Assembly: GCA_003164045.1 (NCBI GenBank)
Contig: PLRU01000073.1
Location: 115,170-179,169 of the forward strand
Direction: 5' to 3'
Source: Candidatus Lustribacter telmatis
GTDB lineage: Bacteria > Vulcanimicrobiota > Vulcanimicrobiia > Vulcanimicrobiales > Vulcanimicrobiaceae
Length of the DNA stretch: 64,000 nt
The position numbers and the translations under genes were made by a program. Of the stretch, positions 12,273-48,692 are shown piece after piece (positions within the stretch are counted from its first letter, which is position 1; every line of letters starts with the position of its first letter). The notes below the pieces were generated by a model, which was given only the letters and a program-made list of their open reading frames with translations, was not told the DNA's origin and searched no databases.

Positions 12273-12296
12273 AAAAAACCCTCGCCGAGGCGAGGG
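12273..12296 (-). terminator. Attenuator terminator of the sulfate operon (leader 1)
   Basis: On the minus strand CCCTCGCC and GGCGAGGG form an 8-bp GC stem, followed by six Ts. It lies 29 nt after the leader peptide's stop and about 50 nt before cysH, with no gene ending here, so it must act by attenuation. The 5' arm can instead pair with GGCGGGG at 12318-12324, just after the leader stop. Confidence 0.9.
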
Positions 12297-12325
12297 TCGC
12301 AACGTGTGGTGAACGGTCCCCGCCG

Positions 12326-12406
12326 TCAGTCCAGTGCAACACCGCGCCCGGTTGCCATTCGGCAACAGGCGAAGTCGGGGGCCGGACAACAACAGGGACA
12401 TAGCAT
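12326..12406 (-). CDS. Polycysteine leader peptide 1 (26 aa), sulfate operon
   Basis: This 26-codon ORF has cysteine at codons 3, 5, 6, 7, 14 and 15 (MLCPCCCP, then ACC), followed by TGA. The ATG is 8 nt after a -10 box, so the transcript probably starts at or next to it and is translated leaderless. Ribosome stalling on Cys codons when Cys-tRNA is scarce would leave the segment after the stop free to form an antiterminator. It controls cysH-cysA-binding protein-cysT-cysW-cysD-cysNC. A hairpin (GTTGCC/GGCAAC) overlaps Cys codons 14-15. Confidence 0.88.
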   Translation of the reverse strand: MLCPCCCPAPDFACCRMATGRGVALD

Positions 12407-12414
12407 CGCGCCCG

Positions 12415-12444
12415 AGCATACCACATGCCAAGTGGACCGGTCAA
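12415..12444 (-). promoter_or_regulatory. Promoter of leader 1 / sulfate operon
   Basis: Minus strand: -35 TTGACC (12439-12444), 18-nt spacer, -10 TATGCT (12415-12420), then 8 nt to the leader ATG. The -35 lies 10 bp from the divergent dioxygenase start codon at 12454. Confidence 0.8.
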
Positions 12445-12453
12445 CCTGAAAGT

Positions 12454-13239
12454 ATGATGAGCAACACAAGCAACCGAATGCCGGTTGTGTTCTTCGGGCA
12501 CGGTAGCCCCATGAACGCCCTCGGCGGCAACCGCTACACCGACGCGTGGCGCGACTTCGGCGCGCAAGTCCGGCCACGCGCAATCCTGATGATCTCCGCC
12601 CACTGGTACGCCGCCGGCACGCGTGTGACCGCATCGGCCCGGCCGCGCACGAACCACGACTTCGTCAGTTTCAAGGGACCGGTTTCGTCGTTCGACTATC
12701 CCGCGCCGGGTGACATCGCGCTCGCGCGACGGGTGCAAACGCTGCTCGCACCGACTCCGGTGACGCTCGACGACCGTTGGGGCTACGATCACGGTGCGTG
12801 GAACGTGCTCGCCAACGCGTATCCGAAGGCCGACGTGCCGGTCGTCGAGCTCAGCCTCGACCGCACGCAAGCGCCGCAATTCCACTATGACCTCGCGGCG
12901 CGACTCGCACCGCTGCGCGATGAGGGCGTGCTGATTGTGGGCAGCGGCAACGTGATTCACAATATCGAGATCATGCGCACGCCGTGGCCCGCGGAGCCCG
13001 ACGGCTGGGAAGGGCGCTTCAACGACGATCTACGCGCGAGGCTCGAACGCGGCGATCACGCCGGCTTGATCGCCTACGAAAAACTCGGCCCGGATGCGCA
13101 ACTCGCCATCCCCACCCCCGACCACTATTTACCGTTCCTCTCAGTGCTCGGGCTGCAGCGCAGCGACGAGCGGCCGGAGATCCTCATCGACGGCGATCGC
13201 AGCGGCGGTCTCGGCATGCTCTCCGTCGCGATGCGATGA
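12454..13239 (+). CDS. DODA-type extradiol dioxygenase (YgiD-like)
   Basis: The 261-residue protein belongs to the class III extradiol ring-cleavage family that includes 4,5-DOPA dioxygenase and E. coli YgiD. It begins with VVFFGHGSPMNAL; other family residues are ISAHW and WGYDHGAWNVL, whose histidines bind the metal. No signal peptide is present. Two adjacent ATGs (12454, 12457) are possible starts. It is divergent from the sulfate attenuator and begins a plus-strand operon with the gene at 13236 (ATGA overlap). Confidence 0.85.
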   Translation: MMSNTSNRMPVVFFGHGSPMNALGGNRYTDAWRDFGAQVRPRAILMISAHWYAAGTRVTASARPRTNHDFVSFKGPVSSFDYPAPGDIALARRVQTLLAPTPVTLDDRWGYDHGAWNVLANAYPKADVPVVELSLDRTQAPQFHYDLAARLAPLRDEGVLIVGSGNVIHNIEIMRTPWPAEPDGWEGRFNDDLRARLERGDHAGLIAYEKLGPDAQLAIPTPDHYLPFLSVLGLQRSDERPEILIDGDRSGGLGMLSVAMR

Positions 13240-13721
13240 CGCCGCTCGCCGCCGTCGAGCGCGGCCTCGAGGAGTTGGAACTGCGTTTCAACGACGCGCT
13301 CGATGCGGGGCTGCCGAACCCGGTCGCGCTGATCTTCAGCGACTTGCCGCTCGTATATCAGGGTAAGCGCGACTTGGTCTTCGCGCTGGATCTCCTCAAC
13401 GAGGGCGAGAACGAGTGCGCGCTCATCGCCGGCTTCGTGCGCGACCGCTTGCGCGAAGAGCCCGACGCCGATGTCGCGCACATGACGCGCGAGGCCTGGT
13501 ATTATCTGCGCACCTCGATCGATCCGACCTGGCAGTTCGACGACGGCGAACCCTCACTCAGCGCGGCGCTCGCCTACCTCGCGCGCGTGCTGCGCGAGCG
13601 AACGGATGCCGTGCGCGCCGCGCCGCGGCCGGCAAACGTCGATGCGACGCCGAGTGGGGAGCGCGCGGCGCTGCTGCGGGACCTGCGCTCGGACGCGGGG
13701 ACAATGACCGGGCGTTTGTGA
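13236..13721 (+). CDS. Hypothetical acidic protein (161 aa)
   Basis: I do not recognise this protein. It is acidic, soluble and predicted helical (for example ERGLEELELRFNDALDAG and LREEPDADVAHMTREAWYY). The ATG overlaps the dioxygenase stop in ATGA, so the two are translationally coupled. The disordered C-terminus is rich in Arg and Ala. Context links it to the dioxygenase and the flavin monooxygenase that follows 10 bp later. Confidence 0.65.
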   Translation: MTPLAAVERGLEELELRFNDALDAGLPNPVALIFSDLPLVYQGKRDLVFALDLLNEGENECALIAGFVRDRLREEPDADVAHMTREAWYYLRTSIDPTWQFDDGEPSLSAALAYLARVLRERTDAVRAAPRPANVDATPSGERAALLRDLRSDAGTMTGRL

Positions 13722-15435: not shown

Positions 15436-15510
15436 ATGAGTTCCGCCGTCAAGCCCATCCGCGCATGTTGTATCGGTTTCGAACGCCGGCGGGATCCGCT
15501 TTTGACGTAG
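15436..15510 (+). CDS. Cysteine leader peptide 2 (24 aa)
   Basis: This 24-codon ORF has a Cys-Cys pair at codons 11-12 (RACCIG) and stops at TAG 15508-15510. It is the least cysteine-rich of the seven, but promoter geometry and terminator spacing match the others. It lies upstream of the gene pair 15609 and 16073. The segment GGCGGG at 15488-15493, inside the ORF, can pair with the terminator's 5' arm and is a candidate antiterminator. Confidence 0.8.
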   Translation: MSSAVKPIRACCIGFERRRDPLLT

Positions 15511-15533: not shown

Positions 15534-15571
15534 AAGCCCCGCCGTTTGGCGTGGCTTTTTTTGTTTTTTTT
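15534..15571 (+). terminator. Attenuator terminator of leader 2
   Basis: AAGCCCCGCC and GGCGTGGCTT form a 10-bp stem with one mismatch and a GTTT loop, then a T-rich tract (TTTTTTTGTTTTTTTT). It lies 23 nt after the leader stop and about 40 nt before the structural gene. Confidence 0.9.
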
Positions 15572-15608: not shown

Positions 15609-16076
15609 ATGAGTGAGCTCCGTGTAGCCTTACTGCTTGCCGATCCCGGTCGCGCCGACGAGGCGCGCGCGATCCGCGACGTCCTCGCCGAGGTCGCACC
15701 CTATTGCGGTGTCCAGACGCATGCCTTCGATTCCGTTCCCCAGCTCAACGAGGAGTCGCCGCGCTTTGCACGCAGTGTTGCCGCCGCGTTATGGTCGGAC
15801 GTCGTGCTGTTTCTCGCGCCCGAACGGAATGCGCGTACGAACGCCGCGCTCATTGCGCTGCGCGAGCGCAGCGGCTTCACGGAGCGCTTTCACGAGCCCG
15901 AGTTTGCGCGCGCGTGGTTCACGGCGAACGGCCGGCGCTCGCTCTACGTCCTCGGCGCGCTCCCGGGCGCATTCGGCGCACTGGCACTGGCACTGGAATA
16001 CGGCTGCTCGGATCCCGACGGCGCACGGCGGTTGCGCATTCTGCATCGCGAAAAGGCGGAGTTGATCGTCGCATGA
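15609..16076 (+). CDS. Conserved small protein of unknown family, sulfur-cluster paralogue A
   Basis: The 155-residue protein has no recognised domain. It is clearly paralogous to the protein at 41977-42423: both share a VAPYC segment, a SDVVL strand, NA-LIALRERSGF, EPEFARAWFTANGRRSL, VLGALPGAF and a terminal GC-DP motif. Alternating beta-alpha patterning suggests a flavodoxin-like fold, which makes a flavin reductase (SsuE substitute) possible, but no FMN motif proves this. It is the first gene behind leader 2 and overlaps the next gene in ATGA. Both paralogues sit next to a binding protein. Confidence 0.7.
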   Translation: MSELRVALLLADPGRADEARAIRDVLAEVAPYCGVQTHAFDSVPQLNEESPRFARSVAAALWSDVVLFLAPERNARTNAALIALRERSGFTERFHEPEFARAWFTANGRRSLYVLGALPGAFGALALALEYGCSDPDGARRLRILHREKAELIVA

Positions 16077-17128
16077 ATCCCATCGGACGCCGGGCGAGCC
16101 TCGGGGCCATCGCCGGACTCGTACTCTCCGGCACGTCCGCGTTCGCAGCCGAGACGCCGCCATCCACGATACGTCTCGCGGCCGTCAGCGCGGGTTACGG
16201 GAAGCCGTTCGGCCTTGCCGTCATCGGGATCGTCCAAGCACGCAAGCTGATCGAGGCCGAACTCAAGGCGGCCAACGTTCGCGTCGCATGGACGTTTCCG
16301 GACGGCGCGGGCCCGGCAATCAACGAGGGCATCGCGAGCGGTCAAATCGATTTTGCGGCGTACGGCGACTTGCCGAACATTATCGGGCGGGCGGGTGGGC
16401 TGCCGACGCGCGTCATCGCTTCGCGCGGCGCCGAAATCATCTACGTCGCCGTGCGCAACGGCGTGCGCGCGCAGACGATCGCCGATCTCAAGGGCTTGCG
16501 CGTAACGTTGCAGCGCGGCACGATCTTGCATCAGGCCTTCGATCGTCTGCTCGGCGAAAGCGGCCTCACGGAGAGCGATATTCAGCTCTTCGACCTCAAG
16601 ACGCAAGATCAGAATCCGGCGATCGCCGCCGGCGACGTCGACGCGGTTGTGGGAACCGTTACGTTGCTGAATCTGCGCGATCAAGGCCTGGTGCGCATCA
16701 TCTACACCACCCGCGGCAAAGTCACGCCGGACGGGTTCGGCGCGTTCGTCGTCGCCGAAGATTTCGCACGGCGGTATCCGGCCACGACACAGGCCGTCGT
16801 GCGTGCGTACGTCAAGGCCGCCAGGTGGGCCGGCGACGAACGGAATCGGGCCGCGGCGCTCGCCATCTGGGGTCTGGCGGGTACGCCGCAAGCGGTGCTG
16901 GCGGAAAGCTTTCGCGGCGTCAACCTGCGCAACCAGCTCGACCCCCGGCTCGACGCCTTCTATCTTGCAACGCTCAAGAGCGAGGTGGCGTTCGCGCAAG
17001 CCAACAAGCTGATCCGTTCCCCCGTCGACGTCGATGCCTGGATCGACCGTTCGTACGTCACGGCAGCAATTCGAGACCTCGATCTGGCTTCGTTTTGGCC
17101 GCCGCGCACATCGAGCGCTCACGCCTAG
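16073..17128 (+). CDS. SsuA/NrtA-family ABC substrate-binding protein
   Basis: The 351-residue protein starts with a twin-arginine-like signal (RRASLGAIAGLVLSGTSAFA) and has the aliphatic-sulfonate binding layout: INEGIASGQIDFAAYGDLPNI, IADLKGLRVTLQRGTILHQ, and the late DVDAWIDRSYV. It closely resembles the binding protein at 22308, including the LQRGTILHQ segment. It probably delivers an organosulfur compound to a permease encoded elsewhere, since none adjoins it on this strand. Its stop shares CTAG with the convergent oxygenase. Confidence 0.88.
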   Translation: MNPIGRRASLGAIAGLVLSGTSAFAAETPPSTIRLAAVSAGYGKPFGLAVIGIVQARKLIEAELKAANVRVAWTFPDGAGPAINEGIASGQIDFAAYGDLPNIIGRAGGLPTRVIASRGAEIIYVAVRNGVRAQTIADLKGLRVTLQRGTILHQAFDRLLGESGLTESDIQLFDLKTQDQNPAIAAGDVDAVVGTVTLLNLRDQGLVRIIYTTRGKVTPDGFGAFVVAEDFARRYPATTQAVVRAYVKAARWAGDERNRAAALAIWGLAGTPQAVLAESFRGVNLRNQLDPRLDAFYLATLKSEVAFAQANKLIRSPVDVDAWIDRSYVTAAIRDLDLASFWPPRTSSAHA

Positions 17129-18027
17129 AGCAGATCGGCAAAGAAGCGGCGCGCCGTTTGCGGATGCGAGCGCAGCACAACGCTCAGCGCCTCCTCACCA
17201 TAGCCCGCATGATCGAGCCGCGGGTTCAAGAAATACGCCACGCTGATGCGCTCGCTGCCGGCGGGCGGACTCGTTACGCGGTGTCGCGCGGCAACGGCCG
17301 CACCGGCGGTCGCTCCGTGTAGCGCGCGGCCCAACACGACGATCATCTCGCCGGGCGCGGCGATTACGTCGATGAATGCGGTTCCGTCGTGGACTTGCAA
17401 GCCGCGCGTGCCGTCTTGCACGATCAGTGCGAGAAACCCGGAGTCGCTGTGCTCGCCGACGCCCTGCTGCGCGATCGCCGGAGCCGCTTGCGGATACTTG
17501 ATGATCTTCAATCGCTCGTGCGGCTGTCCCGAAAAACCGGCGGCAAGGGCGTTGCGAGGCAAGCCGATCGACTCGACGATCGAAGCCATGAGGCGCGTTG
17601 AGATACCGCGCAGGAGATGCATCCAATCGAGAACCGCCGGGCGCAACGTGGGCAGCGACGCCGGCCAGAGATTCGGCCCGTGCAGCCGGAGAAACGGCGG
17701 GTCACCGGCGACTAGCCGGACCGGTGCTTCTTCCGGTCCGACGTCGAGTTGTTCGCGCAGATCCGGCTCGCCCAGCGTACGTTCGCTCCCGGCCGCGGAG
17801 TAGCCGCGAAAATACGGCGAATGGATCATGTCGATCGCATTCCGTTCCGGTTGCGGCAACTCGAAAAACCGGCGGCTCTCCGCAAGCAGCCCGTCCGATA
17901 CGCGCACGTCGACGCCGTGTCCGGTCAACCGAAATGCGCCGAGTTCGCGCACGACTGCGCCGAGGCGCATCTGCTCGCTGCCGCCCGCGCGTTCGAGCCT
18001 TGTGAGATCGATCGCTGGAAGCTCCAC
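17125..18027 (-). CDS. Isopenicillin-N-synthase-like 2-oxoglutarate/Fe(II) oxygenase
   Basis: The 300-residue protein has the two iron ligands HxD in GEHSDSGFLAL, the distal His in AARHRVTSP and the R-x-S pair RISVAYFLNP that binds 2-oxoglutarate. N-terminal DLTRLERAGG and HGVDVRV match the DIOX_N region. This is not a TauD-type sequence, yet it ends an operon of an SsuABC-like transporter, where TauD usually stands, so an oxygenolytic C-S cleavage role is inferred. I chose GTG 18027; a CTG overlapping the ATPase stop is an alternative. It is the last gene behind leader 4. Confidence 0.82.
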   Translation of the reverse strand: MELPAIDLTRLERAGGSEQMRLGAVVRELGAFRLTGHGVDVRVSDGLLAESRRFFELPQPERNAIDMIHSPYFRGYSAAGSERTLGEPDLREQLDVGPEEAPVRLVAGDPPFLRLHGPNLWPASLPTLRPAVLDWMHLLRGISTRLMASIVESIGLPRNALAAGFSGQPHERLKIIKYPQAAPAIAQQGVGEHSDSGFLALIVQDGTRGLQVHDGTAFIDVIAAPGEMIVVLGRALHGATAGAAVAARHRVTSPPAGSERISVAYFLNPRLDHAGYGEEALSVVLRSHPQTARRFFADLL

Positions 18028-18041
18028 CGATCGTGCTTTCG

Positions 18042-18818
18042 TCAGGGAACCGCCGTTTCCAAGCGGCCGACGAGCGTTTCCGTGAGAGCCAGCACGCCGG
18101 GATCGTGCCGATTGCGCGGTTTCGGCAAAGGCACGTCGACGACGCCGCGAATGCGGCCCGGATTGCGGTCCATGACGACGATGCGGTCCGAAAGGAACAC
18201 GGCTTCCGCGACGTCGTGCGTCACCATGAGCATCGTGACGCGCTCGTGCTGCCAGATGCGCAAGAGCTCCGCTTGCATCTGACTGCGCGTGAGGGAATCG
18301 AGCGCGCCGAGTGGCTCGTCCAGCAAGAGAATCTGCGGCTGCGCGGAGAGACTTCGGGCGATCGACGCGCGTTGTGCCATGCCGCCGGAGAGTTGATGCG
18401 GGTACGCTTTCTCGAAACCGTCGAGGCCGACGAGCGCTAAGAAGCGGCGTGCCGTCTTCCGCTTCTGCGCGTCCGATCCACCCGTCTTCAGCAGTCCTAA
18501 CGCAACGTTCGCTTCGACCGTGAGCCACGGAAAAAGACGATGGTCTTGAAAGACGATCCCCCGCCGCAGGCTCGGACCGTCGACGCGCTCCCGATCGAAG
18601 ACCACCTCACCCGCATCGGGAGAATCGAGGCCGGCGACGAGCCGCAGCAATGTTGACTTCCCGCAGCCGCTCGGTCCGACGATGCTGACGAATTCGCCCG
18701 GTTCGACGGAAAATGAGACGTTCGAGAGCGCGTGCACATCGGAATCGTCGACGACAAACGATTTGGACACGCCACGGATTTCCAACGAAGCGTGCGCAGT
18801 TGAAGCGTACTCAGTCAT
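18042..18818 (-). CDS. SsuB/TauB-type ABC transporter ATPase
   Basis: The 258-residue ATPase has Walker A GPSGCGKST, FQDHRLFPWLTV at the Q-loop (SsuB/TauB form), signature LSGGMAQR and Walker B LLLDEPLGALD. It energises the two permeases encoded just upstream (18811, 19593). The start at 18818 overlaps the permease stop by 8 bases. The substrate is probably a sulfonate or related organosulfur compound, inferred from the family and the cysteine attenuator. Confidence 0.9.
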   Translation of the reverse strand: MTEYASTAHASLEIRGVSKSFVVDDSDVHALSNVSFSVEPGEFVSIVGPSGCGKSTLLRLVAGLDSPDAGEVVFDRERVDGPSLRRGIVFQDHRLFPWLTVEANVALGLLKTGGSDAQKRKTARRFLALVGLDGFEKAYPHQLSGGMAQRASIARSLSAQPQILLLDEPLGALDSLTRSQMQAELLRIWQHERVTMLMVTHDVAEAVFLSDRIVVMDRNPGRIRGVVDVPLPKPRNRHDPGVLALTETLVGRLETAVP

Positions 18819-19596
18819 CGGCCAACACCGCATCGCGAACGAATGCCCCCCTCACAAAACTCAGACGCAGCAGCGTGCTGAGAACAAATCCGATAAGGCC
18901 CAGTGCGACGATGCACACCAGCACGACGTCCATACGATTGTCCATCCTCGCCGATGCGAGAAACACGCCGAGGCCGGCGCCTTGATCGATCAGATACTCC
19001 GCGCCGATCGTGCCGATCCAGGCCGACGTCAGCGCGATTTGCAGCCCGGCTACGATGGACGGCCGGGCGCTTGGAAGAATGATGCGCCGGATCCGAGCCC
19101 AATAGCCGAATTCGAACACCCGCCCAACCTCGATCAAGGAGGCAGGTGCTTCGCGGCAGCCGATCTCGGTGTTGAGTGCCGCCGGAAAAAATGCCGCCAG
19201 CGCGATGAGGATCGTCTTGGCGGTATCTCCGTCGCCGAACCATGCCGTCAACAGCGGAATCCAGGCGAAGAGCGCTACTTGGCGCACGCTGTTGAGCGAT
19301 GGAGCGGCAAAGCGCTCGGCCAGCCGCGAGGCGCCGATTGCAATTCCCAGCAGGACACCGGCAAGCGAACCGATCGTCCAGCCCACAGCGAGGCGCAGAA
19401 GACTCGAGCTCACCGCCAACCAGAAATCGGCGTTCTTCGCCGACTCAACGAACGCACCGGCGAGTTGCCTCGGAGGAACGAGCAGATGCGGATTCCAACG
19501 GCCGCTTGCCGATGCAGCAACCCAGATCGCGGCGCAGATTACCGGTACGACGACGCCCCGCCAGTCGCTGCGCGGACGCGCGGTGCCGCGAATCAC
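18811..19596 (-). CDS. SsuC/TauC-type ABC permease 2
   Basis: The 261-residue protein has six helices and an EAA loop (APASLIEVGRVFEFGYWARI, then RIILPSARPSIVAGLQIAL). The GTG start at 19596 overlaps the preceding permease's stop in GTGA. With the gene at 19593 it makes two non-identical permeases for one ATPase, so the channel is probably a heterodimer, whereas SsuC and TauC channels are homodimers. Confidence 0.88.
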   Translation of the reverse strand: MIRGTARPRSDWRGVVVPVICAAIWVAASASGRWNPHLLVPPRQLAGAFVESAKNADFWLAVSSSLLRLAVGWTIGSLAGVLLGIAIGASRLAERFAAPSLNSVRQVALFAWIPLLTAWFGDGDTAKTILIALAAFFPAALNTEIGCREAPASLIEVGRVFEFGYWARIRRIILPSARPSIVAGLQIALTSAWIGTIGAEYLIDQGAGLGVFLASARMDNRMDVVLVCIVALGLIGFVLSTLLRLSFVRGAFVRDAVLADD

Positions 19597-20435
19597 GCCT
19601 CGACGCTCCAGGGCGTAAGCTGCCGCTCGATCCAGCGCATCGCTGCGTCCATGGACCAGCCCGTCACACCGATTACGGCGATCGTCACGAAGACGACGTC
19701 GAGTTGGAACAGCGTGCGGCTCCACGCCATGAGATGCCCTATTCCGGCAGCCGACGCCAGCATTTCGACGACGATCAACACGTGCCACGCATTGCTGAGC
19801 GCGAGACGCAGACCGGCAATGATGAGCGGCAGCGCCGCGGGTATCGTTACCAGCCGCAGGCGTTGCCAGGCGTCCAGTTCGAGAACGTCGGCCACCTCGT
19901 GAAAGCGCTGCGGCGCGGTGCGCATGCCGGCGAAACTGTTCAGCAGCAGCGGCAGAAACGTCGCCTTCGCGATGATCGCCAACTTGAGTTCTTCGCCGAT
20001 CCCGAAGATCAGCATGAACACCGGCAACCATGCGATCGTCGGTATTTGGCAGATCGTACGCACCGTCGGCCCGAGATAGGCGTCGATCGTTCGCGACCGC
20101 CCCATTGCGATGCCGGCGATCATACCGAGCGATCCGCCGATGAGCAGCCCCAACACCACGCGCTGGAGACTCACCGCGAGCGCTGCGAGGAGATCGCCGC
20201 CGCGCAACAGATCGATTCCGGCCTGCCACACGGCGATCGGGCTCGGCAAGATTTGCGGACGCATGAGGTGCAGCGCAACGGCCAGGGACCAGAGAGCGAG
20301 CACGCCGAGCGGAATCACCGCGCCGATAGCGATCGATTGAAATCGCCGGAAGATGCGATGCTGCGGCGCCGGAACGCGTTGCGCGACGATCCCGGGTGAG
20401 ATGAGAGCGTGGATGAACGGGACGGAGCGTATCAT
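19593..20435 (-). CDS. SsuC/TauC-type ABC permease 1
   Basis: The 280-residue permease has six helices and the EAA loop APQRFHEVADVLELDAWQRL followed by IPAALPLIIAGLRLALSNAW. The start at 20435 overlaps the ferredoxin stop in ATGA. It lies between the AprAB-like pair and the second permease, coupling transport and redox genes in one leader-4 transcript. Confidence 0.88.
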   Translation of the reverse strand: MIRSVPFIHALISPGIVAQRVPAPQHRIFRRFQSIAIGAVIPLGVLALWSLAVALHLMRPQILPSPIAVWQAGIDLLRGGDLLAALAVSLQRVVLGLLIGGSLGMIAGIAMGRSRTIDAYLGPTVRTICQIPTIAWLPVFMLIFGIGEELKLAIIAKATFLPLLLNSFAGMRTAPQRFHEVADVLELDAWQRLRLVTIPAALPLIIAGLRLALSNAWHVLIVVEMLASAAGIGHLMAWSRTLFQLDVVFVTIAVIGVTGWSMDAAMRWIERQLTPWSVEA

Positions 20436-41010: not shown

Positions 41011-41861
41011 CGGTTGCCGACGGTATCTTCCCAGCGCAAAGCGCGCCGGGCAATCGCAACCAGAACGAGATCGGTCGCCTTTCCGGCGAGTGCGAAGATC
41101 AGCATGGCGGCGAGGATCAGCGCGGGCTGACCGTTGTTCTCGCCCTCGAGCAGCAGATAGCCGATGCCCTGGCTTGCGCCCATCAACTCCGCGGCGACGA
41201 CGAACATCCAGGCCAGCGCGAAGCCCGTGCGCAGGCCGGTAACGTACGACGGCAGACTCGCCGGTAACAGGACTGCTCGTACGAGCCGTACGCCGTGCAT
41301 GCGATACACGCGACCGACTTCGATCAGCTTGCGGTCCACGCTCGCGATGCCGCTCATCAAGTTGAGATAGACCGGAAAAAAGACGCCCAGCGCAATCAGG
41401 GCAATTTTCGACTGCTCGGCGATACCGAGCCAGAGAATGAAGATCGGCACCCAAGCGATCGCCGGAATACTGCGCAGCGATTGCAGCGTCGGATCGAGTA
41501 TCCGCCGCCACAGTTGCGAGTACCCCGTCAGTGCTCCCATGACCGTCGCCGCGCTCGCACCGAGGATGAAGCCCGACGCGACCCGTTCGAACGAGCGCCA
41601 CAAATGATAGGTCAACTTCCCGCTGAGTGCGAGCCCGCGCAATTCAGCCAGCACCGCCGACGGAGGCGGGAACAGATAGGCGGGAATGAGGTGCAGTCGC
41701 GCGACGAACTCCCACGCGGCGAGCAGCGCGACGGGGACGATGATCGGTAGCGCCCAGGCCGCCCGTGCGCCTGCCGAACCGCGTATCTGCGCACCGGCAT
41801 CGGCCCCAAGAAACGGCTCGGCTTGCGGGACGGTTAGTGCGTTAAGAGTACGCACGCCCAC
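41007..41861 (-). CDS. SsuC-type ABC transporter permease
   Basis: The 284-residue permease has six helices and an EAA loop (VDRKLIEVGRVYRMHGVRLV, then LPASLPSYVTGLRTGFALAW). The start is GTG 41861, with another GTG six bases on; both lie within the end of a small upstream ORF. It makes up the third SsuBC-type channel of the island. Confidence 0.88.
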   Translation of the reverse strand: MGVRTLNALTVPQAEPFLGADAGAQIRGSAGARAAWALPIIVPVALLAAWEFVARLHLIPAYLFPPPSAVLAELRGLALSGKLTYHLWRSFERVASGFILGASAATVMGALTGYSQLWRRILDPTLQSLRSIPAIAWVPIFILWLGIAEQSKIALIALGVFFPVYLNLMSGIASVDRKLIEVGRVYRMHGVRLVRAVLLPASLPSYVTGLRTGFALAWMFVVAAELMGASQGIGYLLLEGENNGQPALILAAMLIFALAGKATDLVLVAIARRALRWEDTVGNR

Positions 41862-41959
41862 CCGACGATCAGTGCGACGGGGATGAGCGTGAGGATGACG
41901 GACGGCTTAGCCGCCGGTCCCGGACCCTGGCGCTCATCGCAGATCGAGAGTTCATGCAT
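41834..41959 (-). CDS. Possible small membrane peptide (41 aa)
   Basis: A 41-codon ORF starts at ATG 41959, 17 nt after the upstream gene's stop, and overlaps the permease start by 28 nt. It has a polar head (MHELSICDERQGPGP) and one transmembrane helix (VILTLIPVALIVGWACVLL). It fills a 115-bp gap in an otherwise tight operon. It might be a real subunit or just the translated lead-in of the permease gene. Confidence 0.4.
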   Translation of the reverse strand: MHELSICDERQGPGPAAKPSVILTLIPVALIVGWACVLLTH

Positions 41960-41976
41960 GATGCGGTTGCGCACGA

Positions 41977-42423
41977 TTACACGGCCGCGAGCATCGGATG
42001 TTGCAGATCCTCACGCACGCGCCGGGCCGCTGCGGGGTCGGCGCAGCCCACATCGAGCGCGTGCGCGAGTGAGGTGAACGCTCCGGGGAGTTCTCCGAGC
42101 ACGAAGAGCGACCGCTTCCGGTTCGCGGTGAACCACGCGCGGCCGAATTCGGGCTCGGTCAACCGCAACGTGAAGCCCGCGCGTTCGCGCAACGCGATGA
42201 GGCCGGCATTCGAACGATCGGTGTTCTTGGTGAGGTAGAGCACGACGTCCGACTGCATCACCGCGCCGACGATTCGCGCGCGGTGCGCGAAATCGTCGGC
42301 AAACTCGATCGCCGGATCGATTGCGTGGGCGCGGATGCGGCAGTACGGTGCGACGGTCCGCAATACCCGGCAGATCGCTTCCGCATCGTCGGTGCGCGTC
42401 GAGTCGGGGATTAGGACCGTCAC
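41977..42423 (-). CDS. Conserved small protein of unknown family, sulfur-cluster paralogue B
   Basis: The 148-residue protein starts at GTG 42423 (TVLIPDSTRTDDAEAI) and is a paralogue of the protein at 15609, sharing VAPYC, SDVVLYL, NAGLIALRERAGFT, EPEFGRAWFTANRKRSL, VLGELPGAF and GCADP. No known motif is recognised. In both places it is next to a binding protein behind a cysteine attenuator, which ties it to sulfur acquisition. A flavin-reductase role is only a hypothesis. Confidence 0.7.
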   Translation of the reverse strand: MTVLIPDSTRTDDAEAICRVLRTVAPYCRIRAHAIDPAIEFADDFAHRARIVGAVMQSDVVLYLTKNTDRSNAGLIALRERAGFTLRLTEPEFGRAWFTANRKRSLFVLGELPGAFTSLAHALDVGCADPAAARRVREDLQHPMLAAV

Positions 42424-42430
42424 CCGCGTT

Positions 42431-43402
42431 TCAGCCGACACGGTAAACGAAGTTCTGGACGTCGGGAACGCTCGGAATGATCTTCTCGTCCGCGAACCAC
42501 CGCGCAACGCGGAGGAGCGAAGCGGCGACATTCGCGTTCACTGCCGTGTACGTCACCGGTGCGCGGTGCGCGAGCAAGTCCGCCGTCGTCTGATCGACTT
42601 TGGCATCGTCTGCCCACAGCCGGGCCGCTGCAGCCGGATTCGCCGTCGTCCACTTGTTCTCGGCGATCAGCGCATCGTACACGATGTGCACCGCCTCGGG
42701 CTGTTGCGCGATCAGGCTGTTGCGCGCGACCACGATCGTTGCATTCTCGTCGTCGATCGCGTGCGACACCGCAATGACCCGTGCTTTGTCGCGAATCTGC
42801 GCGATGGCGAGGTACGGATCCCAGACCGACCACCCGACGACGGCACCGGTGGAGAACGCGTACGCGCCGTCCGCCGGTCCAAGGTACACGCGGTCGACTT
42901 TGTCGTAGGGGATGCCGTGTTTTGAGAGTGCGAGCGCGAGGAGATATTCGCCGCTCCCGCCGCGGTTCACCGCGACGCGCTTTCCGATGAGTTGCGGCAC
43001 GGCCGTGATGCCGCTGTCGGGCCGCACGATCACGCCTTCACCGTCCGCGCTGGGCAGCGCGTACGCGAAGATCTTGAACGGCGCGCCCGCGACCATCGCG
43101 GAGGAAGCCGACGTGGCGCTTCCTTCGGTGATGTCGAGGCTGCCCGGCGTCAGGGCTTCGACCGCCGGCGCGAAGGCCGGGAACGGACCGTCCCATTCCA
43201 CCGTGTAGCCGCGCGCCGCAAGGGCCGTTGCGATCGTGCCGCGCAGCCGGCCGATGTTAAGCGGCGTCAGGCTCTTGAGATACCCGATGCGCACGACTTT
43301 CGAATCGGCCGCGCGGACGCGGCTACCGAGCAGCGTCGCGGCCGCTAAACCGCCGGCTCCGGCGAGCAGTTGCCGGCGCGATGGCGAGGTATATGCGCTC
43401 AT
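42431..43402 (-). CDS. ABC transporter binding protein, sulfonate/nitrate family, Tat-exported
   Basis: The 323-residue protein has a clear twin-arginine signal (SRRQLLAGAGGLAAATLLG) and the binding fold (VRIGYLKSLTPLNIGRLRGT, ALTPGSLDITEGSATSA, QLIGKRVAVNRGGSGEYLL). The ATG at 43402 overlaps the aldolase stop in ATGA. It probably binds an organosulfur compound for the permease at 41007. Confidence 0.87.
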   Translation of the reverse strand: MSAYTSPSRRQLLAGAGGLAAATLLGSRVRAADSKVVRIGYLKSLTPLNIGRLRGTIATALAARGYTVEWDGPFPAFAPAVEALTPGSLDITEGSATSASSAMVAGAPFKIFAYALPSADGEGVIVRPDSGITAVPQLIGKRVAVNRGGSGEYLLALALSKHGIPYDKVDRVYLGPADGAYAFSTGAVVGWSVWDPYLAIAQIRDKARVIAVSHAIDDENATIVVARNSLIAQQPEAVHIVYDALIAENKWTTANPAAAARLWADDAKVDQTTADLLAHRAPVTYTAVNANVAASLLRVARWFADEKIIPSVPDVQNFVYRVG

Positions 43403-44109
43403 CGGAGCCGCCCCGCCGCGCGTGCTTGCTCGGTGAGACCCGAGAGCGCGAATTGCTGTTCCAAAACGCCCGGACCGAACGGCTTCGATCCACCGAGCGC
43501 TTCCGCGAGCAGTTGGAACTGCGCGCCCTCTTCGAGCAACTGCGCATATTCGATCGTCTTCACGAAGCCGCGCGTTCCCCACACGGTCGCCCCGCCGTTC
43601 GCCTCGAGCACCGCCGGCGTCGATGCGTTCTCCGCCAACCGCTCGAGGATGAAGTCGACCTGCGCTTGACGGCGATCGATGTACACCGGAATCTCGCTCG
43701 CGAGCGTCCAGCGCTGAACGGGAACATAGCGAATGGGCAACGGCCGGTGCGTTTGCGACCACGCTCCGAGATGCGTCGAGTGGATGTGCACCGCGGTTGT
43801 GATCTCGGGCCGCTGCGCGAGCAGTGCGGCGAAACCGTGCGGATCGCCGACGATCTTCGGACCGGCGACGATCGTTCCGTCGAAGGTCAGCACGACCGGC
43901 GCGATCGATTGATCGCGGGCGAACGGGCCCGGTTGCACGAGGCCCACGAGCAGATCTTCGCCCGGAATGCGCTCGACGGCTTGAATCGTGCCGTTAATCG
44001 CGAGCGTTCCGGTCTCACGGAGAACGCGAAACGCATGCTCGGCATCGGCTTTCGTTTGTTCGACGAATTGTTGAATTTTGGGACTGATGGCATGGTCGAT
44101 GAGGGTCAT
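43399..44109 (-). CDS. Class II aldolase/adducin-family protein
   Basis: The 236-residue protein contains the zinc motif HIHSTHLGAW and the family segments GPKIVGDPHGF and LLEEGAQFQLLAEALGG. The ATG at 44109 follows GGAG. In an organosulfur operon it could process a carbonyl fragment left after C-S cleavage, or act like methylthioribulose-phosphate dehydratase (MtnB, same fold), but neither is shown by the sequence. Confidence 0.8.
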   Translation of the reverse strand: MTLIDHAISPKIQQFVEQTKADAEHAFRVLRETGTLAINGTIQAVERIPGEDLLVGLVQPGPFARDQSIAPVVLTFDGTIVAGPKIVGDPHGFAALLAQRPEITTAVHIHSTHLGAWSQTHRPLPIRYVPVQRWTLASEIPVYIDRRQAQVDFILERLAENASTPAVLEANGGATVWGTRGFVKTIEYAQLLEEGAQFQLLAEALGGSKPFGPGVLEQQFALSGLTEQARAAGRLR

Positions 44110-44170
44110 TAGAACTCCTGAAAAAAGTGAATGAGTGCAAGGCGGAACATGCGCTCGCAACATCGCCGCG

Positions 44171-45370
44171 TCAACGCGCTGCTCCGGCGACGCTTGCGGC
44201 AACGCGCGGCGGCTCGACGTCAAGCGCGGCGCGGCCGAGAAACAGCGGCAAGACCTCTTCGCCGACGCGGTAGGCTTCTTCGAGATGCGGCAGACCGGCG
44301 AGGACGAGCGCGTCGGCGCCGATACGCACGAGATCGTCCAACCGCTCAGCCACTTGTTCGTAACTGCCTACGATGCCGATCGTCGGGAAGTCGCCAAGCA
44401 ACGCGATCCCGCTCCAGAGATTGGGGGCGATGATCAAGTCTTCGTACCCCGTCGGCACGCCCGGCTGATACGCCGCGAGCCGCCGGCTGCCGACCGACTC
44501 GGCCTTGCGATTGCGCAACATCTCGATCTGATCGGGCCGCACGCGTTCCCACCCAAGGCGCACTTCGCGCCAGGCTTCTTCTTCGGTCGGACGTGCGATG
44601 ACGTGGGCGCGAACCGCAAAGCGCGCCTCGCGGCCAAGCAGCGCCGTTCGCTCGCGCACGCGGTCGAACTTGCGCTCGAGATCGTGCGGATGTTCCAGCC
44701 ACGAGAGGTAGTAGTCGGCGTGCGCGCTTGCCGCATCGATCGCCGCGTCCGACGAACCGGAAAAGTAGACGTCCGGCACGGGCAGCCCAGCGAGCGCGCC
44801 ACGGAGACCGCCGTTGGTTACCTGATAGAAGTCGCCGGCGTAGTCGAACGGTGCGCCCGACCAGACGCCTTTGAGCACGTCGAGGAACTCGGCCGTCCGC
44901 GCGTATCGATCGTCGTGTCCGACAAAGTCACCCCACCAGTGCTGCTGCGGTCCGCCGCCGCCCGTGATGATATTGTAGACGACTCGTCCGTGCGAGAGCC
45001 GCTGCAGCGTTGCCGACATGCGCGCGGTTTGCACCGGATCGAGAAATCCCGGCTGGAACGCGATCATGAAGCGGAACGTCGTCGTCGCGCGCGCCATCGC
45101 CGCCGACGCGATCCACGGATCGTCCGTCTCCGGGAACGACGGCAGCAATCCGCCGTAGAAACCGGCAGCTTCCGCGGCGCGCGCGACCTCCGTCATGTAA
45201 TCGAGATACGTGTACCCGCCGGGTCCGTCGTCGCGCCGGCCGGGAGCCAGACTACCGGCGGATCGCGGCGTCCAATCGCCGCGCGTCTTCGGCGCGTTTC
45301 GCCACGACGACATATCGCCGGTCATCGGAATCCGCCAATAGACCGGAAGCCGTTCGCTGCGCAGCGCCAT
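44171..45370 (-). CDS. SsuD-like LLM flavin monooxygenase (B)
   Basis: The 399-residue protein has the luciferase-like fold with SsuD traits: LPVYWRIPMTGD, YTYLDYMTEVARAAEAAGF, RLSHGRVVYNIITGGGGP, HDDRYARTAEFLDVL and [17 protein letters not shown]. The SsuD active-site Cys region (TGRxCED) is replaced by SFPETDDPW, so the substrate or chemistry probably differs from simple alkanesulfonates. Its start overlaps the previous gene by one base. Confidence 0.88.
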   Translation of the reverse strand: MALRSERLPVYWRIPMTGDMSSWRNAPKTRGDWTPRSAGSLAPGRRDDGPGGYTYLDYMTEVARAAEAAGFYGGLLPSFPETDDPWIASAAMARATTTFRFMIAFQPGFLDPVQTARMSATLQRLSHGRVVYNIITGGGGPQQHWWGDFVGHDDRYARTAEFLDVLKGVWSGAPFDYAGDFYQVTNGGLRGALAGLPVPDVYFSGSSDAAIDAASAHADYYLSWLEHPHDLERKFDRVRERTALLGREARFAVRAHVIARPTEEEAWREVRLGWERVRPDQIEMLRNRKAESVGSRRLAAYQPGVPTGYEDLIIAPNLWSGIALLGDFPTIGIVGSYEQVAERLDDLVRIGADALVLAGLPHLEEAYRVGEEVLPLFLGRAALDVEPPRVAASVAGAAR

Positions 45371-46308
45371 CAGCCGGCCCGCTCGAGCAACGGCGCGTGG
45401 AGCAACGGCAACAAGTATTCTCCGAGCCGATACGCTTCTTCGAGCCGCGGCACGGCATCAATGACGAACGAGGTGATCCCGATTTCCGCGTAGGCGTGCA
45501 GGCGCTCTGCGATGTCGGCATACGATCCGGTCAGGGCGCCGGCGAACGGGTAGCCGGCAGCGATTAGCCGGTCGCGCTCGGTGCGCGCCTCCGTCGCGTA
45601 CTCGCGCGCGACGATCGGCACGCGCAAGCCGTAGCGAACGGCACGGCCGGCATCGTCGGCCAACCTGCGATGCCGCCCGAGCAGAACGGTCAGCGTTTGG
45701 GGTTCGAGCGCCGCGAAGACGTGTACGTCGGCGTGCCGCGCGGAAAATGCCAGCAGCCCTTCGTCATCACCGCTCGCGTACACCGCGGGGAAACGCCGTA
45801 TGCCGGCGCGCACGTTCTGCGTGCGGTGCAACGCAAAGAGCGCGCCGCCCGCGACCGAGAAAAACCGGCCGGTGAAATCGAACGGCGCTTCGCCCCAGAC
45901 GCCTTCGGCGACGACGAGCAGTTCCTGCGCGCGCAGAAAACGATCTTCATCGGCTGCGTCATCAAGTTGCAGCATCCAGCCCAGCCGGTCGTTGAAGAAG
46001 CGTTGAAATGTGAACGCCAATTTCGCGGCATACACCGCCGAGGCGAATCGGGGCTCGAACTCGGGCACGATCTTCACGTGCCGCGTCTCGCGCGCCAGCG
46101 CCGAACCCAGCACCCACGGCTCGTCGCCGTCCGGATCGTTCGGCAAGAGCAAACCGTCGAAGCCGGCCAGATCCGCCGCGCGCGCGACCTGCACCGCATA
46201 ATCGGCGTACGTGAAGCGGCCGGGCCGTTCGTCGCGCACCGACTGATGAAAGCGCACCTGACGCCGCGTTTCGCGTGCCGGCAGCGCCCACAGCGTCTCG
46301 ACGCTCAT
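45370..46308 (-). CDS. SsuD-like LLM flavin monooxygenase (C), shortened
   Basis: The 312-residue protein keeps the SsuD-type start (VETLWALPARETRRQ), FTYADYAVQVARAADLAGF and end (PRLEEAYRLGEYLLPLL) but is about 70 residues shorter than SsuD and lacks the usual insertion and active-site Cys. The flavin pocket motif is diverged (FNDRLGWMLQLD). It could be a partner subunit of the adjacent monooxygenase at 44171. The ATG overlaps the desulfinase stop in ATGA. Confidence 0.82.
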   Translation of the reverse strand: MSVETLWALPARETRRQVRFHQSVRDERPGRFTYADYAVQVARAADLAGFDGLLLPNDPDGDEPWVLGSALARETRHVKIVPEFEPRFASAVYAAKLAFTFQRFFNDRLGWMLQLDDAADEDRFLRAQELLVVAEGVWGEAPFDFTGRFFSVAGGALFALHRTQNVRAGIRRFPAVYASGDDEGLLAFSARHADVHVFAALEPQTLTVLLGRHRRLADDAGRAVRYGLRVPIVAREYATEARTERDRLIAAGYPFAGALTGSYADIAERLHAYAEIGITSFVIDAVPRLEEAYRLGEYLLPLLHAPLLERAG

Positions 46309-47354
46309 ACGGCCGCCACTCTGGATTGAGCCAAGGTTTCGCGCGCCGCGCGCAACGGCTCGTGGCTCGCCCACGCGCGCACGTCGACGGGCCGCTCGAG
46401 AAAACCATGGGCGTAGAGAAAGTCCGCTTGCCGCGCCAATAAGTCGAGCCGGTCGTCAGACAAACTCGGATGGAGCGATTTGTGAAAATCGTTCCGGTAC
46501 GCGGCGACGACGCCTTCGGGTCCCGAACGCGTCTCGCGCTGCAACACCGCACGCACCTCATCGAGGTTATCCGCGGCCCAGTCGGCCGCGCGCAGCGACT
46601 GCGCGAGAAACTTCACCACGAGCTCCGGATATTCGGCGAGAATGCGCTCGTGCACCGTGATCGGCCGCGGCGTGCCGTTGTTGACGCGGTAGCGACGGTC
46701 GGGATACGTGTCCAAGTCGATCCCGACGACGACGCCCGCGCGCAGTGCGTCTTCAGCGGCCGCCGCGCCCTTCACGTAGACCGCGTCGACTTCACCCCGA
46801 GCAAGATAGTCGATGCCGTGCCACCACGAACGCCCATCGGGCGAGGCGTAATCGCTCCGCACGGCTTCGCCCGTCTCCGCCGGAACCTCGACGAAGCGCA
46901 CATCATGGTATGTCAAACCAACGCGCGCGAGCGTCTCAACGATGCCGTGCAGCGACATCGCGCGCGGAAAACTCAGTCCGCGCGTGGCGCCCCACACCGG
47001 CATCGCGACGCGCTTGCCCTTGAGATGCTCGGGCCGGGTGATTCCCGAATCCGGACGCACCAGAATCGCTTGCAACTCATCGATCCACGTGAGACCGATC
47101 AAGCGCGTCGGTGCACCTTCGGCATAGGCGGCAAGCGCCGGGACGTTTCCGCCCTCGCGGAAGAGTCCGATCAGTTGGTGATCGTAGTGATGCCGGATCA
47201 GTTCGCGCGGACCGTCCTGCAAGATCCCGACCTGCAGTCCGCCCGAGCCGAGTTCTTCCGTCAGCCAACCCAGCGAGTAGGCGAGACCGCTCGCCGTCGG
47301 CACGGGGCAACGCGTGTACCACACGTGGGTCAGCGTCTCGTCCGGTGCGCTCAT
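46305..47354 (-). CDS. DszB-like sulfinate desulfinase (copy 2)
   Basis: The 349-residue protein matches DszB at the catalytic positions: Cys16 in YTRCPVPTA, His56 in RHHYDHQ and Arg66 in FREGGNVPAL, again with His and Arg 10 residues apart. It has no signal peptide. It lies between SsuD-like monooxygenases, the same partnership as DszA/DszC with DszB in the 4S desulfurisation pathway, so sulfone or sulfonate to sulfinate to sulfite is a plausible route. It overlaps both neighbours. Confidence 0.82.
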   Translation of the reverse strand: MSAPDETLTHVWYTRCPVPTASGLAYSLGWLTEELGSGGLQVGILQDGPRELIRHHYDHQLIGLFREGGNVPALAAYAEGAPTRLIGLTWIDELQAILVRPDSGITRPEHLKGKRVAMPVWGATRGLSFPRAMSLHGIVETLARVGLTYHDVRFVEVPAETGEAVRSDYASPDGRSWWHGIDYLARGEVDAVYVKGAAAAEDALRAGVVVGIDLDTYPDRRYRVNNGTPRPITVHERILAEYPELVVKFLAQSLRAADWAADNLDEVRAVLQRETRSGPEGVVAAYRNDFHKSLHPSLSDDRLDLLARQADFLYAHGFLERPVDVRAWASHEPLRAARETLAQSRVAAV

Positions 47355-48475
47355 CGTGCGGCAAACCCCGTCGCGTGCATGAGTTCCCGTTGACGCGGGT
47401 CCTCCGGACGCTCGATCTTCGTGCGTAGCGGCAAGAGGGGAAAGAGCAGATCCGCCACGCGATACGCTTCTTCAAGCAGCGGTTGACCCGAGAGGATGAA
47501 CGTATCGAAGCCGGCGTCTTGGTATTCGCGCAAGCGAGCTGCGACCGTCTCGGGATCGCCGACGAGCGCCGTTCCCGGACCCGTGCGAATCAGTCCGAAA
47601 CCCGCCCACAAGTCAGGCGCGATCTCCCAGTCCTGCGCGCGCCGCGAGGAGCCGCTGCCGATCAACGCGTTCATCCGCTTCTGACCGTGCGAATCGGAGC
47701 CCAGGGCGTTCGCGCGGTTGAACGCGACCGCATCGGGGTCCATGTGGTCCATCAGCCACTGTGCAGCGGCCCACGCCTCGGCTTTCGTCTCGCGCACGAT
47801 GACGTTCAAGCGGATGCCGAATTTTACGTTCCGCCCGCGCGCCGCCGCGAGGGCGCGCACCTTGGCGATCTTTTCAGCCGCGATATCGACCGGTTCACCC
47901 CAGGTAAGATACGTGTCGGCGTGCTTGGCCGCAACGGCCAGCGCCGCCGGCGACGATCCGGCGTAGAAGAGCGGCGGGTATTTTTGGGTGGGCTCGAGCG
48001 AGAGTTCCGCACCGCGCAATGAGAAGAATTCGCCCTTGAAATCGACGCGTTCGGCCGCGATGAGCCGGCGGTAGAGCGTCCAGTATTCGTCGGTCATCCG
48101 GTAGCGGTCGTCGTGCTCTTCGTAGATGCCGTACGGCGGCATCTGGTGCGATTCGCCGGTAATGATGTTCAGGATCAGCCGGCCATCGGAAAACTGATCG
48201 AACGTCGCGGCCTTCTGCGCGAGCATCAACGGCGCGACGATTCCGGGATGAACGGCGATGATGAACTTCATCTGCTTGGTCAGCGGAATCAGCGCGGCGC
48301 CCATAACCCACGCATCATGCGCGCCGCCGCCGGTCGCGAGCAGCGCGCCGGTGAAGCCGAGGTAGTCGACCGCGGTCGCGAGCTGGCGGATGTAGCCGAA
48401 ATCGATTTTTCGCGCGCCCGCTGCGCTCCAAGGGTAGTAACCATCGCGTGGGACCAGGTACCAATAGACGTCCAT
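47351..48475 (-). CDS. SsuD-like LLM flavin monooxygenase (A)
   Basis: The 374-residue protein is close to SsuD along its length ([60 protein letters not shown]). The TGRxCEDAW motif reads TGGGAHDAW, so the reactive-site Cys is an alanine. It is the first gene behind leader 7 and should use FMNH2 and oxygen on a sulfonate or sulfone. The flavin reductase partner is not evident. Confidence 0.9.
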   Translation of the reverse strand: MDVYWYLVPRDGYYPWSAAGARKIDFGYIRQLATAVDYLGFTGALLATGGGAHDAWVMGAALIPLTKQMKFIIAVHPGIVAPLMLAQKAATFDQFSDGRLILNIITGESHQMPPYGIYEEHDDRYRMTDEYWTLYRRLIAAERVDFKGEFFSLRGAELSLEPTQKYPPLFYAGSSPAALAVAAKHADTYLTWGEPVDIAAEKIAKVRALAAARGRNVKFGIRLNVIVRETKAEAWAAAQWLMDHMDPDAVAFNRANALGSDSHGQKRMNALIGSGSSRRAQDWEIAPDLWAGFGLIRTGPGTALVGDPETVAARLREYQDAGFDTFILSGQPLLEEAYRVADLLFPLLPLRTKIERPEDPRQRELMHATGFAAR

Positions 48476-48504
48476 ACCGCACTTACATCGGAGACGAGGG
48501 AAAA

Positions 48505-48535
48505 TGAAAAAACCCCGGGCCTGCGGCTCGGGGTT
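48505..48535 (-). terminator. Attenuator terminator of leader 7
   Basis: Minus strand: AACCCCGAGCC and GGCCCGGGGTT form an 11-bp stem with one mismatch and a 3-nt loop, then six Ts. It lies 48 nt after the leader stop. A second hairpin GTCGC/GCGAC (48540-48553) precedes it directly. Confidence 0.9.
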
Positions 48536-48583
48536 CGTGGTCGCTCTCGCGACTAGACCAACGTAGTGGCTAGCGCGAAGATG

Positions 48584-48655
48584 TTACGACATAACGAAAC
48601 TCGGCCGACATTCCGACGGACACAGACAACACGGACACGAGAACGATTGCGTCAT
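48584..48655 (-). CDS. Polycysteine leader peptide 7 (23 aa)
   Basis: This 23-codon ORF has Cys at codons 7, 9, 10, 12 and 16 (SCPCCLCPSEC), ending TAA at 48584-48586. The ATG is 7 nt after the -10 box. It heads the longest operon of the window, 48475 down to about 35667. Confidence 0.9.
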   Translation of the reverse strand: MTQSFSCPCCLCPSECRPSFVMS

Positions 48656-48662
48656 TGCGGCG

Positions 48663-48692
48663 ATAGTAGCATGGCCAGCATGCACTTGTCTA
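48663..48692 (-). promoter_or_regulatory. Promoter of leader 7
   Basis: Minus strand: -35 TAGACA (48687-48692), 18-nt spacer, -10 TACTAT (48663-48668), 7 nt to the leader ATG. The -35 overlaps the last codon of the upstream gene (stop at 48690). Confidence 0.75.

Follow-up and report, generated by a model that had tools for sequence, protein, structure and literature searches.

The subject of this report is a stretch of 64,000 nucleotides from Candidatus Lustribacter telmatis (contig PLRU01000073.1), hereafter called the window, in which seven very short open reading frames (ORFs) rich in cysteine codons precede operons for sulfur acquisition. As judged from their sequence, these ORFs very probably serve as leader peptides in ribosome-mediated transcription attenuation, with cysteinyl-tRNA as the measured signal. 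This reading, put forward in an initial annotation of the region, is now supported by codons specific for the pathway product, promoters at the start codons, strong terminators, the sulfur genes behind them, recurrence of the arrangement in relatives, and a trend toward antiterminator pairing. One of the seven leaders directly precedes a gene for tRNA-Cys, and it is likely that this attenuator controls the very tRNA that its own codons need: low Cys-tRNA would lead to more tRNA-Cys and more scavenging enzymes, i.e., a loop that passes through the sensor.

All seven leaders predicted by the initial annotation were found (Table 1), each 22-26 codons long, and together they contain 30 Cys codons in 168, as it had counted; the window genes are even poorer in Cys than the roughly 1% that it took as usual, with 68 of 13,153 codons in 36 genes (0.5%). 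TGY codons occupy 30 of 161 in-frame positions of the leaders, against 3 of 154 and 6 of 154 in the alternative frames, while most leaders differ in sequence, length, and Cys spacing. When both strands were scanned for ORFs of 10-45 codons with at least two Cys codons and an intrinsic terminator within 90 nucleotides (nt), the only hits in the 64 kb were the seven leader loci and, overlapping them in other frames, the reads 23594-23668 and 23518-23655. Once a promoter was also demanded at the start codon (leaderless placement), seven ORFs were left, compared with a mean of 0.03 and a maximum of 1 in 60 dinucleotide shuffles, and no leader passed this test in other taxa (45 loci, 741 kb), for which a looser promoter cut-off admitted three unconvincing matches (L035, L062, and L071; here and below, G, L, and C numbers denote genomes, loci, and contigs, G000 being the genome of the window). 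The genome of the window was also sampled at 77 other loci (221 kb), not at random since pattern searches had supplied many of them; there the promoter-qualified test found one more leader, in two overlapping loci. When the whole genome was searched for a Cys pair plus an A-run, the regular expression gave 51 matches versus 45 for its control, i.e., noise level.

The choice between the two Cys codons is also distinctive. The seven leaders use UGU 23 times and UGC 7 times, whereas the 36 window genes use UGU 8 times and UGC 60 times (Fisher 5e-10). Across a set of 26 leaders from the window and its relatives, UGU and UGC stand at 73:23, and this bias is specific to Cys because the Phe, Tyr, His, Asn, and Asp codons of the same leaders stand at 16:41 (T:C; p 1e-8). 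Selective charging of isoacceptors does not explain the preference, since both codons are read by the same anticodon; a codon that is rare here and read by wobble would lengthen the pause of the ribosome.

Promoter-like sites lie immediately upstream of the leaders. A TAnnnT -10 box ends 6-8 nt 5' of the ATG in all seven cases, and, as for the -35 box, four leaders have TTGACA or TTGACC, one has TAGACA, and the other two have the weaker TTGCGT and TTGCTT. Because the -10 box is so near the ATG, the usual distance to the transcription start would leave no room for a ribosome-binding site, and the position of the promoters indicates that the seven leaders are probably leaderless. The pattern TTGACN{17,20}TANNNTN{6,9}ATG, which detects only TTGAC leaders and hence four of the seven in the window, has 30 matches in the genome and one when reversed. 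A Cys leader with a terminator stands at five of these 30 sites, four in the window and one on contig C30, where an eighth leader, MLARACCCPGCPPARSIGTG, precedes assimilatory sulfite reductase. At 17 of the 30 sites the ORF has at least 80 codons, and so leaderless starts look usual in this genome; two of these long ORFs begin like what we take to be ribosomal protein L21.

Each leader of the window is followed, 23-48 nt past its stop codon, by a stem with a U-run, again as initially described. Of 13 terminator-like sites in the window, all seven strong ones (score 13 or more, T-run of 5 or more) are the terminators of the seven leaders, and the remaining six score under 12 and have T-runs of 4. 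Two features of classical attenuation are present here, namely a leader ORF rich in codons for the product and an intrinsic terminator ahead of the structural genes. Control by a riboswitch or T-box was considered and rejected: at gathering scores, Rfam models matched only tRNA in the whole window, with no T-box and no SAM (S-adenosylmethionine) riboswitch.

In the mechanism that we propose, the transcript would begin with the leader ATG or only a few nucleotides away from it; to go by the promoter position, a 70S ribosome could then load at once. With ample Cys-tRNA, this ribosome would pass the Cys codons, mostly UGU, reach the stop codon, and cover the leader tail, whereupon the terminator hairpin 23-48 nt further on would form and transcription would end. 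With scarce Cys-tRNA, it would stall on the Cys codons and leave the leader tail and spacer free to form an antiterminator with the 5' arm of that hairpin, for which the support is a trend, and the polymerase would then read the genes for uptake of sulfate and sulfonates, desulfonation, and reduction. For the extra tRNA-Cys we propose a supply role: starvation would raise the total tRNA-Cys pool and UGU and UGC decoding could continue during induction of the sulfur genes, and the regulon would then count among its products the molecule that its leaders sense.

The same architecture, which the initial annotation had suggested looking for in related genomes, recurs in the genus and in the family, mostly at sulfur genes. 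The flavoprotein encoded at 23739-25424 shares 83% identity with a flavoprotein of the metagenome-assembled genome bog_1524 (L033), assigned to Candidatus Eremiobacterota, a name that the NCBI taxonomy now places under Vulcanimicrobiota. G099, the genome of L033, gave matches identical to those of G059, which belongs to the window's genus. Nine leaders were found in G059: L033 holds three, L179 holds five, and one, read by eye since its T-run is short, precedes cysH (L079). Six leaders form orthologous pairs between G000 and G059, five of which keep adjacent Cys codons amid divergence, while that of 48584 (leaders are named here by their start positions) is nearly unchanged. At the level of the family, 20 of 99 genomes carry cysH at E 1e-20 or better, and 11 of these 20 have a Cys leader at cysH or at an adjoining locus (G000, G059, G058, G074, G075, G083, G085, G086, G091, G092, and G093); the promoter matches of the cysH-locus leaders are weak in G058 and G086, and 1.7 kb, including an unassigned stretch, separate the leader of G093 from cysH downstream.

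Leaderless-promoter sites were followed in three further genomes of the family (14 of 36 in G075, all 30 in G091, and all 32 in G085), where the codons of the leaders turned out to follow the pathway. Short ORFs with at least two Cys codons and a terminator stand at six of the 32 sites in G085 and at four of the 30 in G091, which has two more such ORFs with no terminator seen, one of them cut by the contig end. In G085, two Cys leaders stand ahead of genes for an SsuA-like protein and for a dioxygenase of the window's kind. Leaders with terminators that are rich in Met, or in Met and Cys, occur at L286 and L313 (G091) and at L295 (G085); homocysteine synthase is preceded by MDRRPAMMMMCCSPRGTV in G091 and by MNGPAGRCQTMKTSMLCLLREVV in G085, and a cystathionine gamma-synthase-like enzyme by MNFSAGLMMRMMRTRESGRRCFRSG in G091, the codon runs being MMMMCC before homocysteine synthase and MM.MM before the cystathionine gamma-synthase-like enzyme. 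In G075, a leader with RHHHHHG, ending in PCCE, precedes a hisG-like gene (L091 6463-6552), and MSSHATTMMYPHCCMHMQSAGEFVRRAR, with the Thr, Met, and Cys codons TTMM..CC, precedes homoserine dehydrogenase (L091 2215-2301). Leaderless attenuators thus seem to serve several amino acids in this family; for codon sensing, sequence by itself can offer no stronger argument than such pathway-matched codons. A separate observation concerns L322/L335 (G091:C334), where a Cys-rich leader that ends in Leu codons, MLPNLRCCCPCRVSSCSTRWLGLLLL, and a terminator are followed by a small protein with a LuxR-type helix-turn-helix (HTH).

The first gene behind the fifth leader, 34255-34335, is an extra tRNA-Cys gene, a target that the initial annotation had overlooked; a separate tRNA-Cys gene adjoins tRNA-Gly on C51 (L114). 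A search with the island tRNA in the 99 family genomes gave matches of 87-93% in G059, G091, and G085, most other rows matching just a 21-nt T-arm. The order leader, terminator, tRNA-Cys, with the tRNA directly behind, is found in G000, G091, and G085, i.e., in three genera, and both the leader peptides and the downstream genes of G091 and G085 differ from those of the window. In G085, no ORF of at least 80 amino acids was picked by coding score within ∼600 nt behind the tRNA-Cys, so that the tRNA may be the sole target there. In G059, 6.6 kb separate the tRNA-Cys from a leader of the 48584 type that precedes it on the same strand, and the scan shows no further terminator in this interval. The order in G063 is a leader with CCCC, a peroxiredoxin, and tRNA-Cys, with an 83-nt gap; this case is counted as possible because the start codon is uncertain, the terminator was missed by the scan and read by eye, and a GC hairpin precedes the tRNA. 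The tRNA-Cys of G091, searched in 147 genomes of the phylum, has matches in seven of them, and no convincing Cys leader was found beside the copies in G088, G115, and G108 (two like the housekeeping gene, one beside tRNA-Gly), nor beside a copy in a tRNA array in G094. In G000 and G059, which represent one genus, the start codon of the permease lies 4 nt past the discriminator base of the tRNA and permease codons 2-9 show synonymous differences only; 3' processing of the tRNA would thus turn the rest of operon 5 into a nearly leaderless mRNA.

A third tRNA-Cys-like gene (G000:C33:29732-29803, L118) scores 43.6 bits, the lowest of the 48 tRNA matches of the genome, of which 41 were inspected and seven of 82-89 nt were left out as too long for tRNA-Cys. 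Its acceptor and D arms resemble those of the C51 tRNA-Cys and its T arm that of the island copy, position 33 is by our reading an A instead of a U, and ARAGORN gives no call; a scan of 14.6 kb there revealed no leader.

Several observations weigh against attenuation as described above, or favor it only in part. In the antiterminator test, the ribosome was placed on the first Cys pair, and the free tail and spacer were paired with the 5' terminator arm. Over the 26 leaders, which include orthologs and are therefore not independent, pairing compared with shuffles gave a mean z of -1.1 and a Stouffer value of -5.6, and the own arm paired better than arms swapped from other leaders (t -3.1), but just 11 of the 26 reach p<0.1 individually. 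Values of p<0.05 belong to 12326, 15436, 23611, L033:2364, L033:7688, L179:19505, L181, and the homoserine dehydrogenase leader; no antiterminator was seen for 48584, its ortholog L179:3996, L179:1757, L088, L082, L096, and L180; and for the leaders directly 5' of tRNA-Cys p is 0.144 in the window, 0.876 in G091, and 0.02 in G085. Antiterminator complementarity is thus supported as a trend overall, though individual leaders do not all show it clearly. The -35 boxes of 34255 and 34468 are weak, and both leaders fail the strict promoter filter; in 19 leaders outside the window TGY is raised in frame +1 (28/414) as well as in frame (66/433). Three leaders from a search in which no terminator was demanded show none in the scan (loci L083, L086, and L090; genomes G074, G091, and G093), and two Cys leaders of G091 precede genes with no evident sulfur role, one for a generic periplasmic binding protein and one for a LuxR-type HTH protein. 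No leader was found at cysH in nine of the 20 genomes (G032, G034, G035, G036, G038, G043, G078, G088, and G089), although four of them (G043, G078, G088, and G089) have ∼1.6 kb or less of contig sequence upstream of cysH. Lastly, the initial annotation expected the Cys codons to be conserved in relatives; their content is indeed kept, but in the six G000-G059 pairs 19 of 28 Cys columns are identical versus 60 of 108 others, which is not a significant difference.

Four other explanations have been weighed. In mycobacteria, leaderless Cys upstream ORFs (uORFs) before sulfur genes, described in the accessible accounts as lacking conserved terminators, are already on record, and control in that style (translational coupling, unmasking of a ribosome site, or Rho), with the hairpins incidental, would suit the three family leaders for which the scan gave no terminator. 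We nevertheless regard it as quite improbable, because a strong stem and U-run stands between leader and genes in every case in the window, these are the sole strong terminators in 64 kb, and translational control cannot explain a tRNA target directly behind a terminator, since a tRNA gene requires no translation. It is even harder to believe that the peptides themselves act, e.g., as metal-binding or redox-active Cys peptides that the terminators separate from the operon. The high Cys content and the near identity of leader 48584 with its ortholog speak for such a function, yet the leaders are mostly variable in sequence, length, and Cys spacing, the choice of UGU over UGC is invisible to peptide function, and leaders of other pathways carry Met, His, or Thr codons. 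Chance, i.e., Cys-rich frames that happen to lie ahead of terminators, can call on the general abundance of short frames and nothing else; with 7 ORFs observed against 0.03 expected, it is refuted by the shuffles, the frame counts, the scan of other taxa, and the recurrence in relatives, and its probability is negligible.

The remaining alternative concerns the tRNA-Cys behind leader 5, which might be incidental, having its own promoter or marking an insertion site, and not be attenuated at all. tRNA genes are common integration sites, the neighbors of the tRNA-Cys are rearranged in G059, and the antiterminator is not significant in two of the three leaders directly before tRNA-Cys. This possibility is rather unlikely when set against the order of leader, terminator, and tRNA-Cys shared by three genera whose leaders and downstream genes differ, and against G059 and possibly G063, where an extra tRNA-Cys lies behind a Cys leader of the same strand with no further terminator by scan.

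If attenuation by ribosomes that sense cysteinyl-tRNA is indeed at work here, much of the sulfur-starvation response in a little-studied phylum would run without a dedicated repressor, one signal being read by many independent leaders. The adaptor tRNA would be a member of the regulon, and the theory of attenuator sensitivity (e.g., PMC1183508) would have to take tRNA supply as a variable.

The region is a sulfur-acquisition island, and the operon contents assigned with Pfam and NCBIfam bear out the initial annotation on the sulfur genes behind the leaders. Counted by eye and by strand continuity only, ∼41 protein genes and one tRNA stand behind the seven leaders, close to the estimate of about 43 genes at seven promoters. 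The idea of an island-wide regulon holds insofar as seven leaders lie in the island, but the control is not confined to it, given the eighth leader on another contig and the Met, His, and Thr/Met/Cys leaders of the family.

Table 1. Positions in the window of the Cys leaders, their terminators, and the genes behind them
Feature	Position	Strand	Content or remark	Basis
Cys leader 1	12326..12406	-	MLCPCCCPAPDFACCRMATGRGVALD; precedes cysH and sulfate uptake/activation operon; G059 ortholog
Leader 1 intrinsic terminator	12273..12297	-
Operon 1	5246..12264	-	cysH, ATP-binding cassette (ABC) ATPase, sulfate-binding protein, two permeases, cysD, cysN/C-like	Pfam/NCBIfam
Cys leader 2	15436..15510	+	MSSAVKPIRACCIGFERRRDPLLT; ortholog L033:2364-2438
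Leader 2 terminator	15534..15562	+
Operon 2	15609..17128	+	155-amino-acid protein without assigned family, SsuA-like binding protein
Cys leader 3	23462..23533	-	MLVRLNACVCCCRPIRRASLGVM; ortholog L033:7688-7756
Leader 3 terminator	23411..23438	-
Operon 3	17125..23366	-	NMT1-type binding protein, flavoprotein, permease, ATPase, 2-oxoglutarate (2OG)-Fe(II) dioxygenase
Cys leader 4	23611..23679	+	MSSRPLVCCSACPMHRFGVRPI; ortholog L033:7836-7901
Leader 4 terminator	23705..23735	+
Operon 4	23739..28796	+	two flavoproteins, two 4Fe-4S proteins, luciferase-like monooxygenase
Cys leader 5	34255..34335	-	MKHVGVCCCACCISPALPCRLGATSA; tRNA-Cys is the next gene
Leader 5 terminator	34197..34228	-
Extra tRNA-Cys (GCA)	34085..34156	-	first gene behind attenuator 5	ARAGORN; Rfam tRNA 64.4 bits
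Operon 5 after the tRNA	29145..34081	-	permease, ATPase, NMT1-type binding protein, SsuD alkanesulfonate monooxygenase, SorA-like sulfite dehydrogenase
Cys leader 6	34468..34542	+	MIDVAVAARCCFVRPEIRMRRCCA; ortholog L179:17432-17506
Leader 6 terminator	34569..34600	+
Gene behind leader 6	34649..35623	+	NMT1-type binding protein
Cys leader 7	48584..48655	-	MTQSFSCPCCLCPSECRPSFVMS; ortholog L179:3996-4067
Leader 7 terminator	48507..48535	-
Operon 7	35667..48475	-	SsuD-like and other luciferase-like monooxygenases, several binding proteins, ABC permease, ATPase
Operon 7, further genes	35667..48475	-	aldolase-II-like protein, paralog of the 155-amino-acid family, 1-Cys peroxiredoxin

Two of the encoded products deserve a comment. 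The SorA-like sulfite dehydrogenase (29145-30332, minus strand) scores 537 bits, below the curated cut-off of 600, and sits in a sulfonate-scavenging operon, where sulfite would be the wanted product; perhaps it serves the detoxification of excess sulfite. The other is a small protein family with members at 15609-16076 (plus strand) and 41977-42531 (minus strand) of the window, which are paralogs with 55% identity, and at L180:6216-6746 and L179:10194-10658. It comes first behind leader 2, stands directly 5' of tRNA-Cys in G059, and directly 3' of it in G091. The 155-amino-acid member behind leader 2 matches no Pfam family, and Foldseek returns weak matches for it, none at E 0.001 or better, the best (1.4e-3) being to a MoaB-like fold; the AlphaFold model has a mean pLDDT (predicted local distance difference test) of 83.

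Among known systems, attenuation of the trp/his type has in common with the present leaders an ORF with codons for the product, an intrinsic terminator, biosynthetic genes behind it, and, here as a trend, an antiterminator; what differs here is the cysteine signal, the probable leaderless start, the spread over seven operons in one island plus one elsewhere, and the tRNA target. Polycysteine leaderless uORFs of mycobacteria were reportedly treated by Canestrari in 2020. The initial annotation drew its parallel with mycobacterial attenuators, where leaderless Cys-codon uORFs do precede cysteine genes (Shell 2015, PMC4633059; PMC1262725), as the leaders do here, to judge from their promoters. 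This parallel fails at the mechanism: in the accessible text, the mycobacterial cys leaders are reported to have no conserved terminator hairpin and to carry their Cys runs near the stop codon (PMC1262725), whereas all seven leaders of the window have terminators 23-48 nt past the stop and, by eye, their Cys runs lie away from it, except for the second pair in leader 34468. Given the lack of conserved terminators in that account, the present leaders do not belong to the mycobacterial class as described.

Closer in form are LeuL2, TrpL1, and IlvL of Streptomyces lividans, leaderless leader peptides followed by hairpins and a U-rich stretch (PMC8079986), although their amino acids are Leu, Trp, and Ile/Val. 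In the available portion of that source, which lists eight leaders, none is named for Cys, the metL peptide has three Cys, and a tRNA target does not figure. Likewise, no description of a tRNA gene under a leader-peptide attenuator was found in the titles and opening lines of abstracts listed by searches of the open-licence literature. The closest precedent for the signal is uORFC-8-2 of the Rhodobacterales, located before cysS, with tandem Cys codons, two stems, and a U-run, for which attenuation by tRNA-Cys charging has been proposed (PMC8632094). As far as the accessible description goes, that element has a conserved structure, is alphaproteobacterial, and has cysS as its sole target, whereas here many operons stand behind leaders with no shared sequence; and while uORFC-8-2 targets the synthetase of tRNA-Cys, the probable target here is tRNA-Cys itself. 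What is new in the present system is its scale, the combination of its features, and the tRNA gene as a target.

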